Shown here piece by piece: positions 2 to 11,888 of a stretch of 61,265 bases of DNA. Numbering within the stretch: the stretch's first letter is position 1; each line of letters opens with the position of its first letter. The stretch is from the NCBI GenBank assembly GCA_947165235.1, contig CAMUZN010000002.1, forward strand, positions 1 to 61,265, read 5' to 3'. Both the position numbers and the translations under genes were made by a program. Source of the DNA: an uncultured Mycoplasmataceae bacterium (GTDB taxonomy: Bacteria > Bacillota_I > Bacilli_A > Mycoplasmatales > Mycoplasmoidaceae). The notes beneath the pieces are model-generated. The model saw only the letters and a list, made by a program, of their open reading frames with translations, had not been told where the DNA came from and searched no databases.

Positions 2-1360
2 AATAATCTAGATGAAGTAATAAAGAAAGATGTGAAAAATTTAAATGATTTTAAGAAAGAAAAAGGTGAGTATAAATTAATAGAACGAATAAACAAGCGA
101 AAAGATGGTAGTAATCGATATGTAATTGTCATACCAATTATTAGAAGATTAGCTGAATTATTAAATTGCTCAATCGATGAATTAAATGCTAACAAAATTA
201 ATAATTTGGGTAAGGAAATAATTGATAAAGCGGAAGAATTGATCGAAAAAAATCAACAAAATTTAAATGAAATAACACAAATAATGTTAAAGCAATATTA
301 CCAATCTATGTCACGTTTTGAAAATGATCAAAGTGAGTTATTAATAAAATTAAAAAATGCTGAAAGTCAAAATAATATTTTTCGCGATTTGCTAAAAGAA
401 TATGATGTTGAGAATATAACTGAATTAAAAAATAAACTCGATGCTTTAATTAAAATAAACAATTTTCTTGTTTTTACAGAAAATGTGATAGATGTGTTGA
501 ATATGCTAAAAAATAACAATGAGGCAATTATTAACATGTCATATGAAGATTTACAACGAGAATTTTTACCAAAATTTTATAAAGATTGTGATACCAAAAT
601 TAAAGATTCTTTGATAATTTGATCTTTATGCCAATTGAAGGAAAAATCTAATGATCATCTTGAACACACTTGGGAAATTTTTACACAAAAATTTGATGAT
701 AACAGTTGGAAAGATAAACATTCGCATTGTATCGATATATTATCTCGAGCTTTGGGAATAAATTCTAATGAAATAAACAAAGAATCGGTTAATAAAATTC
801 TTTCTAAAGAAATAAAAGATGCTATAAATGATTGCCCTCCTTCTCCTCACAGTGGCATTACTTTATCAGATTCATCAGAAAGTCTTTACACTGATTACCA
901 CGATGATTACCTCGATTACCTCAAATTGTTTTGGTTTCAAGCAACAAGTCATGCATTTGCCAAAGTATGAGCAATGTCTATTGATAATTGAGAAACTTTT
1001 ATACAAAGATTTAATGATTCAGATTGAAAAGATAAACATCAAGATGTGGTTTATCTTTCACATTTAAAGCAAATTCCCAATGTCGATCATATACCTATCC
1101 AAATCAGAACAAAAGTAGGTGAGATTATTGAGCAAATGAAATTAGAAAAAAAAAAATTACAAATAACTGATAAAATACAAAAAGCGAGAAAAGATATTTG
1201 AGATTCGTTAATACTAGTTAGTTCTTTTGATATAAAAGATTTAATAGTAAAAATAAATCATTATTGTGATGCTTTAAAATTATGTAGCAATGAAAAATTT
1301 TTAGAAGAATCGAAAAATATAGGTATGGAATTAGCTAAGGATTTAAAATCTTTTGTTTAA
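2..1360 (+). CDS. Unrecognised protein with duplicated Trp-rich motif (5' end outside window)
   Basis: The frame is open from the left edge to a TAA stop, about 452 codons, reading four UGA codons as Trp. I do not recognise the family. The first half is rich in Lys, Glu, Asn and Leu and looks like extended, possibly coiled-coil helix (roughly codons 60-150). The second half holds two copies of a 17-residue motif, W-E-x-F-x-Q-[KR]-F-[DN]-D-x-x-W-K-D-K-H, 106 residues apart. No membrane segment or catalytic motif is visible in the part present. Its stop overlaps the stop of the convergent glf gene by 4 nt. As its N-terminus is missing, it could belong to a larger exported protein like the one starting at 3854. 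Coding status is firm; function is unknown. Confidence 0.8.
671..1039 (+). repeat. Two copies of a 17-codon Trp motif
   Basis: Positions 671-721 and 989-1039 encode W-E-x-F-x-Q-[KR]-F-[DN]-D-x-x-W-K-D-K-H twice, 318 nt (106 codons) apart. The first copy spells Trp as TGG; the second uses TGA for both Trp. The protein motif is therefore conserved while the DNA has diverged, which suggests selection on the peptide. Confidence 0.75.
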
Positions 1361-2517
1361 TGAAAATTATTAGCTAATTTCATTGCATATTCAATTGTAT
1401 CATCCATATCAAAATATTTATATAGACCTAATCGTCCTAGAGGGTAAAAATTAGAAAAAATTTTAAATAATTTCAAGTATTGCTTGTATTTCATTAGATT
1501 TTTTTTATTAATAATTGGATAGAAGCGTTGACTATTTTGATTTTTTGATAGCACAAAAGATTTTGGATACTCCTTTGAAATAATTGTATTATTAATATTT
1601 CTTTGTTGTGTCATTTGTTTATATTCACAAATTCGCGTCATTTTCGGATGATCAGGATAATTAACAATAGCACTTTGTTGGAATTTCACCATTTTTTTAA
1701 AAAAGAACTTTATTTTTAGACTTCGGTATGGCAAAACTCCAAATTTATAATTACACAATTCATCTAGTGAACCACAATAAAAAATTAAACCATTAAATTC
1801 TTTTTTATTCAGATAAATTTTTTTATTTTCGGTATCAAATTTTAATATTTTTTTTGCATCCGTTTTCAAATTTATCGTAATTTTTTTATGATTAAACATT
1901 TCTGTAATCATCCGTGTATAGGTGTTGATTGGTAATCCTTGATACCTGTCTTGGGGGAAATAATTATGTTTATCACTTAGAATTATTTTTACACGATTAA
2001 TTGTTTTTGGATCAACTTTATTAAATTTAATACCTCACATTTTTGTTGTATAGTTTGCATAAACATTTTGAAAAATAAAATCGTAAAATTTTCTTATTTT
2101 TTTGTCATTTATTTTTTTTAATTGCGACAATGTTATTAATTTTGTTTTTCCAAATTTTGTTTTAAGTTTTTTAATAATGTAATTGGCATCATTTTTAGCA
2201 ATTATTTTAATACTTGTGAAATTTATCGGCAATGGGAATAATAGGTTTTTATAACGAACATAAACTTTATTTATAAAATTATTCAATTTCGTAAATTTAT
2301 TAATGAATTCGTAAATTTTTTTTTTATTCGTATGAAAAATATGAGGCCCATATTTATGAATAAGGATACCTTTTTTATAGTAATCATAGCAATTACCACC
2401 AATGAAATTATTTTTTTCATAAACAGTAATTTTATAGTTTTTTTTTGCAAGAATATTTGCTATTGTTGCACCAGCTAAACCTGCTCCAACAATAATTGCT
2501 TCTTTGTTTATTAGCAT
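1357..2517 (-). CDS. glf: UDP-galactopyranose mutase
   Basis: Interconverts UDP-galactopyranose and UDP-galactofuranose, the donor for galactofuranose-containing glycans and glycolipids; FAD-dependent and cytosolic. The protein has 386 residues, close to the usual 370-390. The N-terminus shows the Rossmann FAD-binding motif (VGAGLAGATIA), followed by the family signature GGNCYDYY and HKYGPHIFHT. The middle has FPLPINF, and the C-terminus keeps YPLGRLGLYKYFDMDDTIE, with the conserved NFYPLGR arginine region. One in-frame UGA is read as Trp (TKM-W-GIKF). The start overlaps the end of the upstream membrane-protein gene by 7 nt, so the two are probably cotranscribed. The pair suggests a galactofuranose-containing surface glycolipid or polysaccharide, which is inference. 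Confidence 0.93.
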
Positions 2518-3701
2518 TTTTTATTCTTATTTTTAATTTGCTTGGAAGTTAAATATCAAAAACCAAAAAAACCAAAAAAAGCGATTAAATAAGAATTAAA
2601 TCACTTTCACAACAAAATAGAATTAGCAATATAATCTTCTTTTTCTTTTAAGGAGCAATTTTTTATTCCTCCATAAACATCAAATAATTGTTTCATTACT
2701 AATTGTGTCGAAAATTCTCCTCCTGGTAAAGGAATCATTTTGTTTGCCGTATAGGCAACATTAGCAACATTAAAAATACCCATAAAATTGATTTCTACTC
2801 CATGGGGAAGAAAAAAAGCAAAAGCAAAATAAGTTGATGAGTAGACATATATTTCTTCTAATAAAACAAAAATGAAAGTTCAAATTGTGCTAGAATAGTC
2901 ATTTATATGCTCGTAAAAATCCTTTCGCATAATTTTTTGCCTTTTATATATTTCAACAATTTCATTTTTTGTTTGGTATCGTAGTTTAAATTTTTTTTTA
3001 AACCAGTTAAGGGTGGTTAACAAAAAACAGTGTACATTTGTTGATAAGCATAGAAGCGTTGTGACAATCAAACCAATTATATCAATGCTTAAACCAATAA
3101 TCATTAGGGAAAAGATCGAAATATTTAGTTGATTTGTTAGCATGGCATAACCATGTTTGATTATTATGATAAATGAAGGAATTGTAATTAAAATTTGTGT
3201 TAATTGTCATTGTCAAGTATTGATAAACATAATTGTTATTGCCTTTTGTATTGGAACACCATTAATTTTCATTCAAAAAATTGTATAAGGATCATAGACA
3301 AAATTTGCTGGTGTAATAGCCTTAATGAAATCAATCGTTATCATTAAACAAAATCATTGAATAAAATTAATTTTTACTATTTTTCGTACTCGCATTCAAA
3401 GACTTATTACATTAAAAATAGGAGCGATTATAAAATAAAGAAATAATAATAAAAATCAAATTCTCTTTTCGCTAATCATTAAACCAAATTTGATTTTCAT
3501 CATAAATGAAAAAATGTTTGTTTTGAAAACAAAGATTATTGTGCAAGTAAGCAATAAAATTGTTACAAGAAAAAAAACAGAAAAAATGATTATTTTCTTT
3601 TTTGTAAAAAATGACTTTTTTAAAATGTTGCTAGTTGTATCGATATCATGAAAAGAGCTATCTTTTAGTTTAATACGATTGTTTTTCGAATTTTTAGTCA
3701 T
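2511..3701 (-). CDS. Flippase-like (lysylphosphatidylglycerol synthase TM-type) membrane protein
   Basis: A 396-residue polytopic membrane protein with about seven or eight hydrophobic helices, beginning with a strongly hydrophobic segment at residues 36-60. Towards the C-terminus it carries IPLPGGEF, then QLFDVYGG and a further helix pair. This matches the P-x-PGG signature of the UPF0104/LPG_synthase_TM (MprF-type flippase) family. It is continuous only if several UGA codons are read as Trp. It precedes glf and overlaps it by 7 nt, so a role in moving or building a galactofuranosyl lipid is plausible but inferred. A TATAAT box ends 6 nt before the ATG, with no Shine-Dalgarno. It could instead be an unrelated lipid translocase. 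Confidence 0.75.
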
Positions 3702-3853: not shown

Positions 3854-6800
3854 ATGGTAAATAATAAGAGTAAATTTAAAAAAATTTTTTTATTATCCTT
3901 GATTTTTTCTCAAAATTTCTGTCTCTTCATTGGTTTAACAAATAAAAATAAATTTTCTTCTACTACTGATTTAATAACAAAAAATCTCTACTCCTCATCT
4001 CCTTCATTGGCAACTTCACAACCAAGTCTATCTAAAACCCTTAATTTACCTTGGCTTGAAAAATACGAAAATGATAAAGATTTTGTTAATCAAAATTTTA
4101 ACGGATATAAATATGGCAATTTGATTAGTAAAGCATTATTTGCACGATATATTGGTCAAATGATATGTGCTTTTAAAAAATTTCAAAAACATATCTTAAA
4201 TAATTACAAAAATTTAAAATTTACATATTACGATTGAGGAATGTTTTATCGTAGTCGACGAATTATCGAATTTAATCAAGAATATTTTGACCAATTATTA
4301 GAAAAAATTGAATGGGAAGACCTTTTTGATTTCGACACATACGAACTTAATTATAAAGGAGGTTATGGGGCAGGATGAAGAGGTTATTGGGGAAAAGAAA
4401 TTATTTATTATTTTCTTAGTGATGAGCCTGATGGCATTTATTATGTGGATGAAAAAGATAAAGAAAATGAAAACAATGAGATTAATCGAAAAATAAAAGA
4501 TGAAATTAAGAATATAAAAAAGGGGAAGGATGCTAATGTTGATAATGCTGATAATGCTCGAAAGAAACTTCTTGCTTTCAATGACACTATTACTACCCAA
4601 ATTTCCGCAACAAAAACTCTTTCATACAATGAAGAATTAATTAAATATTTGGGTCAAATTGTCAACGAGATGCGTACTAACATTAATGACGAAGTTCTAC
4701 TTCCACAAAACGAAAATATTAATTTTGATAAGATTACTTCTTTAACTGAATGACGACAAGATTATGAAGATATTAAACAATTTCATTCCTGGATTCAAAA
4801 TGTGGAAAACTTTACTGACATTGCCCGGATTCAACATGCGAAATTTACTGACATTGTTAATAAAGATGAACTTATTCTTAAAAACGAACTTCATCTTGTT
4901 TTATCAGCCAATAATTATCGTAATTTTTATAAATTTTTAAAATTGAATAATAAAAAAAATGAACATGGTGAGATCATTAATTTTGAAGATATGATCAAAA
5001 GGTTTTATCATTTAACACAAAAAAATCAATCAATTCTCATATTTGAAAAAGCTGTCGCCTCATATATTTTTGCTACGAAAAACAATAAGGTGATAGATAA
5101 TTTTGATTTTGATGAAATGGTAGTGAGATATTGAGACTACATCATGTGAACGATAGTTGGTCTAGAAATTTCTCTTCTTTGTCATTATATTTCACCATTA
5201 TTTTATGAAACTCGTAGTATGTATCTTGCTAATAATTCATGTATGTATCGCCCAACATCAACACAGATCGATATAGCGAATACTTATAGAAACTTTAATT
5301 CAGGTTTTACACATCCAACAGAGGTTATTGGTACCTTAACACGAATGAGTAATATTTCTAAAAATTATGTTTCCATTGATAGTGCTAATAAACTTCTAAC
5401 TTACACTGCTGCTGCAGGTATGCTTGGTGCAGCCAAGGAAGTATTTGAACAAAAAATAAATGTTATGGGTGAACGTCTTGAAATAAATTTAAGGACTTTA
5501 TTACATGATGATGGTAACATTATTGCTAATCAAGAAAGGGTGACAATAGGTACTAACAATCAAAACAACATTCCAAATAGAGATATGAGAGAAATTGATA
5601 ACATTATTACTAATCATGAGGAATCGATAAATGAGGAAAATTTTGGTAGGAATGAAACGACTAATGATGAACAAGAAACACGGAATAGAATACAACAATT
5701 GTATAATGAAGCTTCTTCTTTTATTTCTTGATTACCCCAACAAGTTTGAATGAATATACCTATCATCATTCAAAATTGAAATAATTTCCAGCTATTATTA
5801 ACTCGTATTAATGATTTAAATAGTGAGGAATTACATAGTTTGCTCAATCGTTTTACAAATTTTCATTCACAACTATCGCAGTTGACAAAATTTAAAGATT
5901 GAAAAAAACAAGGTGAACAAGAAACACGGAATAGGATACAACAATTGTATAACGAAATTTCTTCTTTTATTTCTCGATTACCATCATGACATCAAATGCA
6001 CACACGTATCATCACTAACAATTGAAGTGATTTACAACAATCATATAGTCGTATTAATGATTTAAATGGTGAGGAATTACATGGTTTGCTCAATCGTTTT
6101 GCAAATTTTTATTCACAACTATCGCAGTTGTGAGAATTTAAAAATTGAAAAAAACAGCAAGATATAGAAAAGAAGAGAAAGAATAAGAAGGAAGAATTGA
6201 AAGATTCGCAAAATAATAGAAACAATACTCTCTCTAATATTGACATTGATACTTCTTCCTTTTTTGAATCCCACCCTCTACCTAATATAACTAATAATAT
6301 TGTTACACATAACATTGACGATAATACACGTGCATTATATAACACACCATTAGTAGATATAAACAATATACTTCAACGAGAGGAGCATAGAAAAAATAAC
6401 AGAGAAATATCACAACGAGTATCGCAAGTATCTAAGTATGGAACAAGATTAACTCCCGATCAAATAAAAATTGAAAGCTTAATTAGACCTATTATTGGTG
6501 AACGTCGAATTAGATGTTATTGACGTCATAATCAATATTGAATTCGTATTGCAGATTTACCCGATGAGCTTCAATTAAAAATCTTTGAATCATATAGTAA
6601 TAAGTTGTGTGAGGAAGATGGAATAAAACAAAAAATAGCACAAAAAAAAGCTATACCCCTTTCCTTATTACAACGTGTTCGGTACATTCCTATTAGTCAA
6701 TTAATAGATCTTACTTTAACACAGTTTTACAATAAATATAATTCCGAAAAATTATCTATTGATATTTCTAAGTTAATTGATGTTATTGCAATAAATTATC

Positions 6801-9800
6801 TTCGCTTATTAAGTGAAGATAAAGTAATAATTACAACTAAGCCAGAAATAAAAACAATTGATAGTGAAAATAATCTCGTTAATTCAGAGTATTATCGTGA
6901 TGTTGAGGATGAAACAATGGATACTACCATAGATTTCAATGATAATGATCCGATTTATGATTATATTCCCGTTAATACTTTAGGTACATCATGTCTTAGT
7001 GATTCTAGCAAAGAAAAGGAACGAATACGAAAAATTATCAATACTTTGATACAACAAGAAATTCTGTATTCACAACCCACTGGTTTTATTTCTCTTAAAA
7101 ACAATAATAACAGTGTTTTAGTATTAGAGATTGATTACGATGCACTTAAAACGAAAATGTCTAAATATGGTGCTTCTATTAATGAGCATTTTAATAATGA
7201 TGATTTATATAATTTGTGTTATGCTAGTGTTACTACATATCAACCAAAATCAAAATATGCAAATTCATTAATTATTCCGCATTTTTCTCGTTCTTTTTTA
7301 AAACCATTTATTGATGATGTTTGCGACGATATTGAAGTTACAAACGAATTAATCTACTTTTTAGCCCATTTTATGTTTGAAACAAAAACGGAATTGTCTA
7401 TTAATAATGATGAATCAATGAAACAATTTAGTGATTGGATGAAAAAACGTAAAGATGTAAATTTAAATGATTTAAAAGATATAAATGCAGAAGAATTAAA
7501 TAATATTAATTTTTTTGATTTTTATTATAAAAATATGATAACTGATGATGTTATAGCGGAGTCCAAATGGTTATTACAAAGAATTCAAGAGGAACTTAGC
7601 GAAAATTCTCATACCGATGATATTGAACAAAAAAATAATGTTACTGACAGCATTGAAATAACTACCACCAACGAATTAGCAGATGGAAAACTTGTAATTA
7701 ATAAAGAGGAATATCTTATTAAAAAGGATGATAAAGGAAGATCGACAATAGCTTCCAATGTTTATATTTATGATCGTAATGGTGGTAATGCAGCTGTTAT
7801 GCCTATGGAGTGGGGCGATAAAGATTTGACTGATGAACAAGTAAATAATCCCCTTAAAACAATTACTAATTCAATAATGAAAGATAGTTTAATTCTAAAT
7901 GCGCATCGTCATTTACAATTGGATGATGGTGAAATAAATATGCATCGTCATTTACAATTGGATGATGGCAAAAAGAAACAAGATTTTAATAAAAACAATA
8001 TTACTACTTCAAAACAAAAGCAACATGATTTTAAATATTTAAATTACAAGAGAAGACAACATAAAAAAAATGTTTTGCGTAGCAACAATATGAGTAGCGT
8101 TGTCAATCAAGGACTTATTGGTGGTGATAATCTCAATACCCAAAATAACGATAGTAGTAATATGTCACTAGTAACCGAAAATTATTTCAAAGGAATCAGT
8201 AATATTTCAATAAAACCTGGTGACGAAGTTATATTAGAAAGACCTACTGTAGAAAATGAAAATTATCGACAAACTATGAAGATAACAATTAAAAAATCCG
8301 ATATTAATGCGGATAATAATGCCATCACCGATATACAACGACCAATATGTGAACAACCAAGAAAGAAAATTCCAAATGAGCTAATAAAAAAAAGCATTAC
8401 GATGCTATTTTATTTAATTGAGTTTATGTTTGCCGAGAATAAAAAATATTTTAAACCGATTTATGATGAAAAATATTTTCGTGAATGATTAAAATCAAAA
8501 GAAAATTACACCATAGGTTATAATAATAAAATTAAAGAAAACTTTAATTTAGTGAATATTGATGATTTTTTTTTAAATTGGGCATCACCCAAAATTATTA
8601 ATTTATCAGATGAAGTTTTTAGAGAAATAATAGATAATACATTACAAAAAATATTAAAAAAATATCTAAAAAAAATTTTTTCTGAAAAAAAAATCCGTTT
8701 TACAAATAAATTAGGTAAAAAATCATGATGTGTACTCGTTGATTCTTTGCCTGAAATGATTGTAAACATGATTAAAAACCGCAAATACATAGTAAGAGAT
8801 TTAGATTGTATTCCATGAGAATACGTAGAACAAATAATAATTGACGAAATATTACATTCTACTCACCATGAATGAGGTAAAACCAAATTTTGTTTCTTGT
8901 CTATAGCACAAATACAAAAAGTTTTTCATTCATGTTTTAACGAAGGCATAATTAATTATGAATTTTCTAATGATATTATTGTAAATAATAAAATTGATGA
9001 AGTTACAATTACTGGTAATGATAAGGAAAAGTTAATTGAGAATATTATTTTAAATGATGAAGAACCTAATAATATTTTAAATGTTAGTGCTAATGAACAA
9101 TCATTAGTTGCAACAATAAATATTTTTAATCTAAAAAAAAAGATATGAGAAGAAATATTTGGTTCACGAAAAAATTCTTCTTTTGTTCAAATATTAGAAT
9201 TTTATCAAAAATCCAATGATTTTCAAAAACAATTATATATTCATTTTACTCAAGAAATTGATGACGATTTAATGCTTAGTTATATAACAATGCTTGAAAA
9301 ATTAGCTAGATGTAAAAAATTAAATAAAAAATATGATTTTATTGCTGATAAAATTATTTGTTGTCGTATTGATAAGTGAGACCTAATTGATCCAATTCAA
9401 TCAATAGCCGACCAAAACAAATCCATAAACGATTTTATATATCGTAGAATTAATAAAATATTCTCAGAATTTTATGATGGGCAGGAATTGAAAAATAATT
9501 GTTATTACGACAATTGTATCGCTATTTATATAGATCCTAAAAGAAGATGAATTAATTATATAATAGATGTTAAATCTCTAAAAAAAGAGATCATTAAATC
9601 ATTTGCTAACTTAAATCAGAATTTCGACGAAGCAGAGCTATATTGAATTTGCAAGCATGCAATTTCGTACTGTATAAATAAAACTAATAAAAAATTAACT
9701 TATGTGTGGAAACATTTCGATTATACAATGTATTATTGTAATCAATTGTCAAGTGACAATGTTAATTTATCAAAAGATAATCAAAAAGAATTTGGCGTGG

Positions 9801-10582
9801 GAATTAAAACTGCCATGAATAAAAATATTTGAAATTTTTATAGCGACATAAATAAAATAGTTATGGAAACACTTTTTACAAATAAAAAATGTATGCCCAG
9901 AAAAAAAATTGGTGATACGGTATTTTATCAATTAAATATTAATGAAATTAAAAGAATTTTGTTAAAAAAATTCGCTGATAAAAATGATGATATTATTTGT
10001 CTTTTCATCAAACAAGATAATATCGATACATTAAATCGCATTGTTCAGAGCGTTTTTAAGAAGCGTGGAACGAAATTTGTCGATGTTAAATTTGATGCTG
10101 ATCCTTATTTTATAACATCAGACACTACATTTAATATGAATTTTAGTCCCTTAACTTTTAGATGTAGAATGAATTTAAGAACATCATCTATGAGTAATAA
10201 AGGAAATTTAAGTGGTGTATTTATAATTAAACAAAACGAACGTTTAGATGACAAACAAAAAGAAGAATTATTAACAGAGTATTCTAAAGTTGTTGATGAA
10301 ATACGTTATCATTTAATAAAAAATTATTACAGAAAATATTACAACTGTGACTACCATGATGAATATTATAATGAAATTTTATCTCTCTATGCTAAGGCAT
10401 TAGATATTAGATTTCAATATTACACATCAAAAAATCTTGTATACATTGGTGCAAAAGGTAAACCTTATAGCAATAAAGATGTGTTTGTTTCTGAACCATA
10501 TGCAACATTTAAATTCTTTAATTTAATAGATTACTCTAAATTCGTCGTTTATTTTTACAACAATATTGATAATTTAAAATAA
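3854..10582 (+). CDS. Giant probably exported protein, 2242 residues, family not recognised
   Basis: A single frame runs 6729 nt without TAA or TAG when UGA is read as Trp; I checked every junction. The N-terminus has a short Lys-rich start and a hydrophobic stretch (residues about 11-28, IFLLSLIFSQNFCLFIGL), a signal peptide or signal anchor without a lipobox. A second hydrophobic stretch lies near residues 429-450. Residues 606-687 and 688-769 are a tandem 82-residue repeat. Residues 1351-1372 contain HRHLQLDDG twice. Acidic, Asn-rich low-complexity linkers are frequent. I see no Walker motif, protease triad or LPXTG. It stands alone, flanked by the flippase-glf operon and a non-coding gap. 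It may be a surface adhesin, a host-interaction protein or a toxin-like protein; none of these is shown. Coding status is firm. Confidence 0.85.
5669..6160 (+). repeat. Tandem 246-nt (82-codon) repeat in the giant gene
   Basis: Copy 1 is 5669-5914 and copy 2 is 5915-6160, directly adjacent and in frame. Both begin EQETRNRIQQLYNE and share RINDLN-x-EELH-x-LLNRF and a W-K-K-Q end. Nucleotide identity is high at both ends and lower in the middle (around LPQQ/LPSW). Each copy has several UGA-encoded Trp. Confidence 0.85.
7904..7969 (+). repeat. Short tandem repeat HRHLQLDDG x2 in the giant gene
   Basis: Two 27-nt units (7904-7930 and 7943-7969), 39 nt apart, encode HRHLQLDDG and are virtually identical at the DNA level. 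This points to a recent slippage or duplication event within a linker. Confidence 0.8.
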
Positions 10583-11204
10583 TGATTAGTGAGATAAATA
10601 ATTAAAAAATAAGGCAATAAACCGAATCATAGTCATAAAAATCATCATTCTTAGTTTATATAATAATTATTTTATGTTAGTTTTTGTTATAGCCAATATA
10701 AAACCAACTAACTATTAATACACTGAATAATTTATATAAAATAATGAAATTTACTAGATTCAATAAAGTTTAAATAGATCTAAAATTATTTGCATTTAGA
10801 TAAATTAGTAATTATGGTAATGAAATTTAATACATTTTTTGTTGACATAAAAAATTTATATCTATTTTAAATTAATCATACGAATGTTTTTCTAAAATAT
10901 TAGTTCATATTGAAGTCGTAGTATTTAATGCAATTAAGAAAATAAATTGTTGTTGCTAAAACTGCACAAAAAATATTGAGCAAATTAATTATTATCTAAT
11001 TTCTATTCCTATCTAACATATATTACATAAAGACAATTAAAAACAAAAAATTGATGATATATTGTTTTTTAATTATTATTCTTGAATTTATGTTTGTACC
11101 ATCAATAAAATTGCATCCGTTTAGAATAAATTGTTGCACAAAGATCTAGATTATTTTCTATACATTTATTTTTAAAATAACATAATTGATTAAGTGTGGA
11201 TCGT
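10583..11204. other. 622-nt stretch without a supportable gene
   Basis: Extremely AT-rich sequence between the giant gene and mtnN. All frames are broken by TAA or TAG within about 50 codons. A TTGACA is present at 10842-10847 on the plus strand, but no matching TATAAT follows at 16-18 nt and no open frame lies downstream. No tRNA fold, hairpin terminator or CRISPR-like repeat is visible. It may be a decayed gene or the 3' untranslated region of the giant gene. Confidence 0.6.
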
Positions 11205-11888
11205 CTAAGAAAACAATCTAATGAGAAAATTCGTTATTTTTTTTCGCATTTTTTTTAAAGATTTATTGTAAATCAAATTTTGTTTTTCGTTTAGGATAGA
11301 ATCTGAGACAAATTTAAGACTAAAAAAATCAATATTATTTTTTTGACATATTTGTGCAATTGCCATTGATTCCATATCAATTCCAACAACTTTATTTTTT
11401 ATATTAAAGAAAAAATTAACATTTTTCCTTGTTACAAATGTATCACCAGAAACTATACTACCAATAATTGGTTTTTCATCATTAATATCTAATAGAGAGG
11501 AAATTTTTTTTATATATTTTTTTTTAATCAATATCCTTGATTTTTCACGTGGTATTTGATTTTTTTTATATCCAAAATTAGTTAAATTGACATCAAAATA
11601 TTCGACTGATTTAGCAATAATTGGACAAAAGTTTTTTATCATTGACTTATTTACCCCACATAAACCAATATTGAAAATTTTTGTAATCTTATAATTATTA
11701 ATCATTGTTGCAGTTGCTGCTGCGGCATTAGTTTTACCTATACCTGATATACATAATGGAATTTTTTTATTATGAATATTCAATAATAAAAATCAAAAAC
11801 CATTAATTTTAATTTTTTGTAATTTGATTTTCTGCTTTAGATTAGATAATTTAATTTCATCCCAATCTGCAATAATAATTCCTAACAT
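11205..11888 (-). CDS. mtnN: 5'-methylthioadenosine/S-adenosylhomocysteine nucleosidase
   Basis: Hydrolyses MTA and SAH to adenine plus the thioribose or ribosyl-homocysteine product, removing inhibitors of SAM-dependent enzymes such as the RsmH, TrmK and RlmB proteins encoded nearby. The length is 227 residues, as usual. Visible motifs: SGIGKTNAAAAT near residue 55; IVSGDTFVTR; GIDMESMAIAQ with the catalytic MExxA glutamate; and KFVSDS with the catalytic Asp. One UGA is read as Trp near residue 32 (GF-W-FLL). With it, the start moves up to an ATG whose A is the last base of the upstream TAA (TAATG), so translation is probably coupled to nadD-yqeK. Confidence 0.92.

Follow-up and report, generated by a model that had tools for sequence, protein, structure and literature searches.

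Among the giant surface proteins of mollicutes are Gli349 and Gli521 of Mycoplasma mobile, which have their giant size in common with the protein described here. The ureaplasma antigen MBA is much shorter than this protein, and Vaa of Mycoplasma hominis is a small lipoprotein. Ureaplasmas and M. hominis use frameshifts at poly-A tracts as switches, and possess families in which a conserved N-terminus is joined to a variable tail (PMC3047005). Here we analysed a 61,265-nucleotide stretch of DNA (the window) from an uncultured Mycoplasmataceae bacterium, which contains one exceptionally long gene. On balance, we favour the view that the product of this gene is a giant protein on the cell surface of a rumen mollicute, specific to its lineage and probably variable, that serves contact with a host or partner.

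A preliminary description of the window had reported a single uninterrupted frame of 2,242 codons with UGA read as tryptophan, and our analysis bears this out. Using translation table 4, we found one open frame ending with a stop at position 10,582, in which 24 UGA codons are translated as Trp (Table 1). This code is supported by neighbouring housekeeping genes that are also read with UGA as Trp, for example LysRS, which is 89% identical to genes in two metagenome assemblies. At the base composition of the gene the chance of a stop is 0.073 per codon, which gives a log10 probability of -74 for 2,242 codons without a stop, and GC at codon positions 1, 2 and 3 (0.36, 0.26 and 0.18) follows a coding-like pattern. 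Although nine A/T runs reach a length of 8 or more, the frame is intact; its 6,729 bases take up 11% of the window, as had been stated. It had also been claimed that the protein belongs to no recognisable family, and this stands. The whole protein matched no Pfam family even at E 10, no NCBIfam model at 0.1 and no PDB sequence credibly; the Pfam-listed mycoplasma adhesins (P1/MgPa type and others) were among the profiles that it failed to match at these thresholds. PDB profile searches with alignments of the head and of the LP repeat (see below) returned chance-level matches only. A scan of the whole protein against genome contigs gave nothing, and neither did a search of plasmids and viral contigs.

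Table 1. Features of the window and the evidence on which each is based.
Feature	Coordinates	Strand	Basis
WDF-repeat protein, open at contig start	2..1360	+	three repeat matches
UDP-galactopyranose mutase (glf), syntenic flank	1357..2517	-	window neighbour
Multi-spanning membrane protein, left neighbour of insertion	2511..3701	-	synteny
Stretch found only in window genome	3702..11204	.	flanking genes adjacent in five other species of genus
Giant protein gene	3854..10582	+	2,242 aa, UGA=Trp; table 4 translation
N-terminal hydrophobic signal or signal-anchor segment, residues 11-29	3884..3940	+	hydropathy; similar segment opens all five heads
Conserved head, residues ~60-425	4031..5128	+	33-34% identical to four other heads
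Hydrophobic segment, residues 429-447	5138..5194	+	hydropathy; same-position hydrophobic segment in four relatives
Two tandem 82-aa units, residues 606-769	5669..6160	+	68% aa identical; dN 0.21, dS 0.15, from few codons (82)
Probable LP-repeat unit W1, residues 871-990	6464..6823	+	pattern and position fit; alone not significant
LP-repeat unit W3, residues 1598-1702	8645..8959	+	profile score, AF2 model
Nucleoside phosphorylase-family gene (PNP_UDP_1), right neighbour of insertion	11205..11888	-	synteny

The window is contig C2 of a 479-kb assembly in 13 contigs that is 86% complete (G000). The two assemblies with the 89% identical LysRS gene, which represent sister species, are RGIG3423, from goat reticulum (G004), and RUG13511, a rumen assembly labelled 'uncultured Ureaplasma sp.' (G001); the same scan found a 68% identical gene in RUG11194, and we take 'RUG' to stand for rumen uncultured genome. 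Three further genomes, G002, G003 and G005, represent other species of the genus. The window organism is a tiny, wall-less mollicute; its named relatives were obtained from the forestomachs of ruminants, and we presume that it is placed near Ureaplasma and Mycoplasmoides.

The gene had been presented as a giant orphan, which holds in that no database family matches it and fails in that the gene belongs to a small family whose members share a conserved head. Searching with the single giant sequence detected no relatives in 56 other genomes spanning the order. A profile of the head (A1) found matches in three genomes (G000, G001 and G004) and none in 92 others of the taxonomic family. A paralogue, the second giant gene of the window's own genome, lies at 240.7 kb of contig C1 (G000-C1); G001 encodes two giant relatives (G001-C1 and G001-C3) plus a stop-containing remnant at G001-C1:116 kb, and G004 encodes one (G004-C4). 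Common to all copies are the first ~425-460 residues, which comprise a signal-like segment, the head and then a hydrophobic segment. The heads are 33-60% identical across the family, and the tails are dissimilar from locus to locus. In an alignment of five copies, the head region holds most of the 54 invariant columns and mean column identity of the heads is 47%. The signal-like N-terminus that had been described was confirmed as a hydrophobic segment; it is preceded by a Lys-rich stretch and has no clear lipobox. An AF2 model of residues 1-1110 with the five heads had a pLDDT of 34.5 and was set aside. The giant protein thus does not stand alone but belongs to a small family that is mobile and evolves fast.

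Depending on the locus, the tails carry helical repeats or an LP repeat of ~100 residues. The G000-C1 tail contains 76-aa helical repeats followed by three WDF repeats at its end, and the tails of G001-C1 and G004-C4 contain several ~100-aa units with an LPxxI motif. In the window protein, the tandem repeats reported earlier were confirmed, although they are small: an 82-aa unit occurs twice, starting at residues 606 and 688 (246-bp period, 84% matches), and between the two copies replacement change exceeds silent change. The 76-aa repeats of the paralogue do not match them. Using an LP profile made without the window units, we found that W3 scored 14.6 bits, against a maximum of 6.2 across 300 local shuffles. 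An AF2 model of W3, built from 14 divergent rows, reached a pLDDT of 82 and a pTM of 0.75. Foldseek found no PDB fold match for this model (best E 0.67, TM 0.23), and there was no fold match in a viral library. The LP repeat may possibly be a new fold, although so few and divergent rows leave room for error in the model. We rejected a winged-helix assignment on the same Foldseek result and the same model. Further LP units picked out by eye (residues ~1053-1140, 1858-1950 and 1988-2080) gave no score with the profile and are not counted. The matches that the LP profile gave in three other genomes were attributed to chance, as they lie inside ABC transporter-like, FtsZ-like and GltX-like genes.

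The WDF repeat is 70 aa long with the pattern W..F....W...C.I..L...KI..L. A genome-wide search at E 0.001 found 27, 25 and 12 matches in the three giant-bearing genomes, 64 in total, and 0 in the 92 others. WDF-repeat genes lie near most giant genes: a 1,657-aa WDF protein with a lipobox-like start directly adjoins G000-C1, a long WDF array is found ~2 kb from G001-C3, and single repeats of weak significance occur in lipoprotein-like genes right after the G001-C1 and G004 giants (i-E-values 1e-5 to 1e-6 when a small protein set was searched; absent from the genome-wide list at E 0.001). No WDF repeat was detected in the window giant protein. Because the WDF repeat of the G000-C1 tail end is common to outward-facing lipoproteins, it suggests an extracellular position for this tail end, a point that applies to the paralogue and not to the window copy. 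The window contig itself begins inside a WDF-repeat gene, with an assembly break within the repeats being probable; the frame is open from base 2, and the GTG start at position 32 may not be the true start. On the minus strand of contig C3 of the same genome (L070), a 982-residue frame that begins with a lipobox-like sequence and includes four WxxF motifs represents a further WDF lipoprotein. Pfam HTH, TniQ and DUF4778 matches of WDF arrays were sums of weak repeats and were not accepted.

The giant gene occupies an insertion. In G001 and G004, the orthologues of the two flanking genes adjoin, with ~26-64 bases between frames, and in G002, G003 and G005 the order is membrane protein, phosphorylase and HD protein, without a giant. 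Given that the site is empty in five other species, parsimony suggests that the window copy was gained at, or moved to, its present site in its own lineage. No target duplication was recognised at the insertion site. In G001 and G004, one giant sits instead between a TrkA-like gene and a 298-aa gene, and these two genes are adjacent in G002. The ~620 bases 3' of the giant gene (10583-11204) lack a long ORF, which is unusual for a compact genome, and are perhaps the decayed remainder of an inserted gene. Giant loci lie within ~10 kb of glf or galU-galE. Surface-sugar genes thus recur beside them: the window giant is near glf, and a giant and WDF-array pair is near galU-galE-glycosyltransferase in two species (L007 1646-3519, L050 3844-5708). 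In G002 (L061 8580-10874), a 764-aa frame covers the glf and membrane-protein orthologues, an apparent fusion.

We measured evolutionary rates in syntenic pairs of related giant copies; for the window copy, which has no known orthologue at its site, only its tandem units were compared. In the G001-C1/G004-C4 pair, dN/dS was 0.54 at dS 0.48 for the head and 0.59 at dS 0.70 for the tail, with G001-C1 compared in two pieces, one on each side of a frame break. The neighbouring genes (MtaB, TrkA, Glf, the membrane protein and the 298-aa gene) had values of 0.07-0.16. In the G000-C1/G001-C3 pair near galU-galE, the head had a dN/dS of 0.62 at dS 0.82, and its neighbours GalU and GalE had values of 0.065 at dS 0.83 and 0.11 at dS 0.70, respectively. 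The ratios of the giant copies are ~3-8 times those of most neighbours at similar dS, and dS is not saturated. The similar dS indicates that the giant pairs are as old as their neighbours, and the higher dN indicates that they change faster, though below neutrality. A dN/dS below 1 is no proof of positive selection, and relaxed constraint would raise dN/dS too. This speed is not unique to the giant because a nearby 206-aa lipoprotein (L009 4697-5317, L010 13977-14603) also has a high dN/dS (~1.0 at dS 0.04, G001 versus G004); it is possibly another fast-evolving surface gene. The earlier proposal of selection, plausibly for host contact, finds support in the intact frame and in ratios that are below 1 in related copies yet raised. 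Such rapid replacement of amino acids, measured here in related copies, is consistent with a surface protein in contact with a host or partner cell.

These observations suggest how the giant protein may work. The first hydrophobic segment would send the head out of the cell, and the head region would anchor the protein in the membrane. The long tail would form an outward-facing stalk, built of alpha-helical and LP-repeat units, and would contact a host or partner cell, whether the rumen wall, a ciliate or another microbe. The WDF lipoprotein encoded nearby may cooperate with it. The protein would be under pressure to vary in partner contact, and the family would diversify through rapid substitution, the gain and loss of repeats, movement of copies and, possibly, on/off switching at A-runs. 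We give little credence to a bolder version, in which the giant and the WDF lipoprotein form a two-part surface apparatus invented by this clade, with a new LP fold, that attaches to a specific rumen partner such as ciliates.

The main doubt about the surface reading is topology. The hydrophobic segment at residues ~429-447, kept in five of five copies, could turn the tail into the cytoplasm; of the claim that the protein is exported, the signal-like segment therefore stands, and the tail may lie on either side of the membrane. Only some relatives show a second hydrophobic segment clearly, and in the window copy it is weak or absent. These features, together with 22 Cys in residues 860-2242, would suit a membrane-anchored protein with its head outside and its ~1,790-residue tail in the cytoplasm as a cytoskeleton-like internal scaffold. 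We consider such a scaffold unlikely, since the WDF repeats common to the lipoprotein and the G000-C1 tail end suggest that the tail is outside there, and an internal scaffold would not usually change so fast along its tail.

The preliminary description had associated frameshifts and stops in relatives with a decaying gene, and such breaks exist. Interruptions occur in G000-C1, G001-C1 and G004-C4, most of them at A7-A8 runs and one at a G7 run, and one more copy is the stop-containing remnant; the window frame is unbroken. A family that is decaying and largely neutral, with one copy still open, would account for these breaks and for the raised dN/dS, but appears distinctly improbable: 2,242 codons have stayed open despite the A/T runs, dN/dS values of 0.54-0.62 are well below 1, and the dS of the pairs resembles that of their neighbours, so that the copies have been kept since the species split. 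By analogy with ureaplasmas and M. hominis, the breaks at A7/A8 and G7 runs are only suggestive of phase switching, and they may be assembly errors, given that two ordinary G001 genes are split too. The phosphorylase and HD-domain orthologues of G001 (L048 4076-5570) each occupy two frames, as pseudogenes or assembly errors.

The surface reading is also to be weighed against an effector that is secreted and acts on a eukaryotic partner, for example rumen ciliates, a reading that we hold to be very improbable. The signal-like start would suit an effector, as would the motif LPDELQLKIF in W1, the LPxxI motif being superficially F-box-like. Mycoplasmataceae are reported to be enriched with rumen ciliates (PMC6217230), and for this reason a ciliate partner of the window organism is possible. 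However, the F-box assignment was rejected because there was no Pfam F-box match at E 10 and the W3 model had no fold match in the PDB or the viral library, and an anchor-like membrane segment follows the head. Least likely of all is a role in gliding or attachment machinery comparable to that of the giant leg proteins of M. mobile, which glides with 50-nm legs (PMC4937208): size, signal-like start and surface context would fit, but no relatives were detected in the 56 other genomes spanning the order, no gliding genes were recognised near the giant gene, and the family is in three species only.

The organisms concerned are rumen mollicutes of a genus known here only from metagenome assemblies. 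Their giant genes illustrate that, in a reduced genome, a giant that looks like an orphan can be a paralogue that moves and changes fast and not the relic of an old family. Two unnamed repeat families, LP and WDF, are added. A fast-evolving, clade-specific surface family points to molecules that probably meet a host or partner, and the head domain and the WDF lipoproteins are concrete handles for finding that partner.

Compared with known systems, the giant family resembles the MBA/UU172 phase-variable antigens of Ureaplasma, which have a conserved N-terminal export region, differing C-terminal parts and several paralogues per genome (PMC3047005). Among the giant paralogues too, a conserved N-terminus is joined to a variable, repeat-bearing C-terminus, and truncation by frameshift, described for MBA/UU172 (PMC3047005), would be a further likeness. 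The giant family differs in that its head profile found matches in no more than three genomes, all of one genus, out of 95 in the taxonomic family, a set that likely includes Ureaplasma. There is also a likeness to Vaa of M. hominis, a variable adhesin with reported frameshifts at poly-A tracts (cited in PMC3047005), although the window gene, unlike Vaa, has no frame break. As regards Gli349 and Gli521, an order-wide search of genomes with the window protein detected no homology, and the giant family is confined to one small clade. With no homology to known variable surface proteins found in these searches, the giant protein is best explained, by analogy, as one that would work like the variable antigens and adhesins of mycoplasmas.
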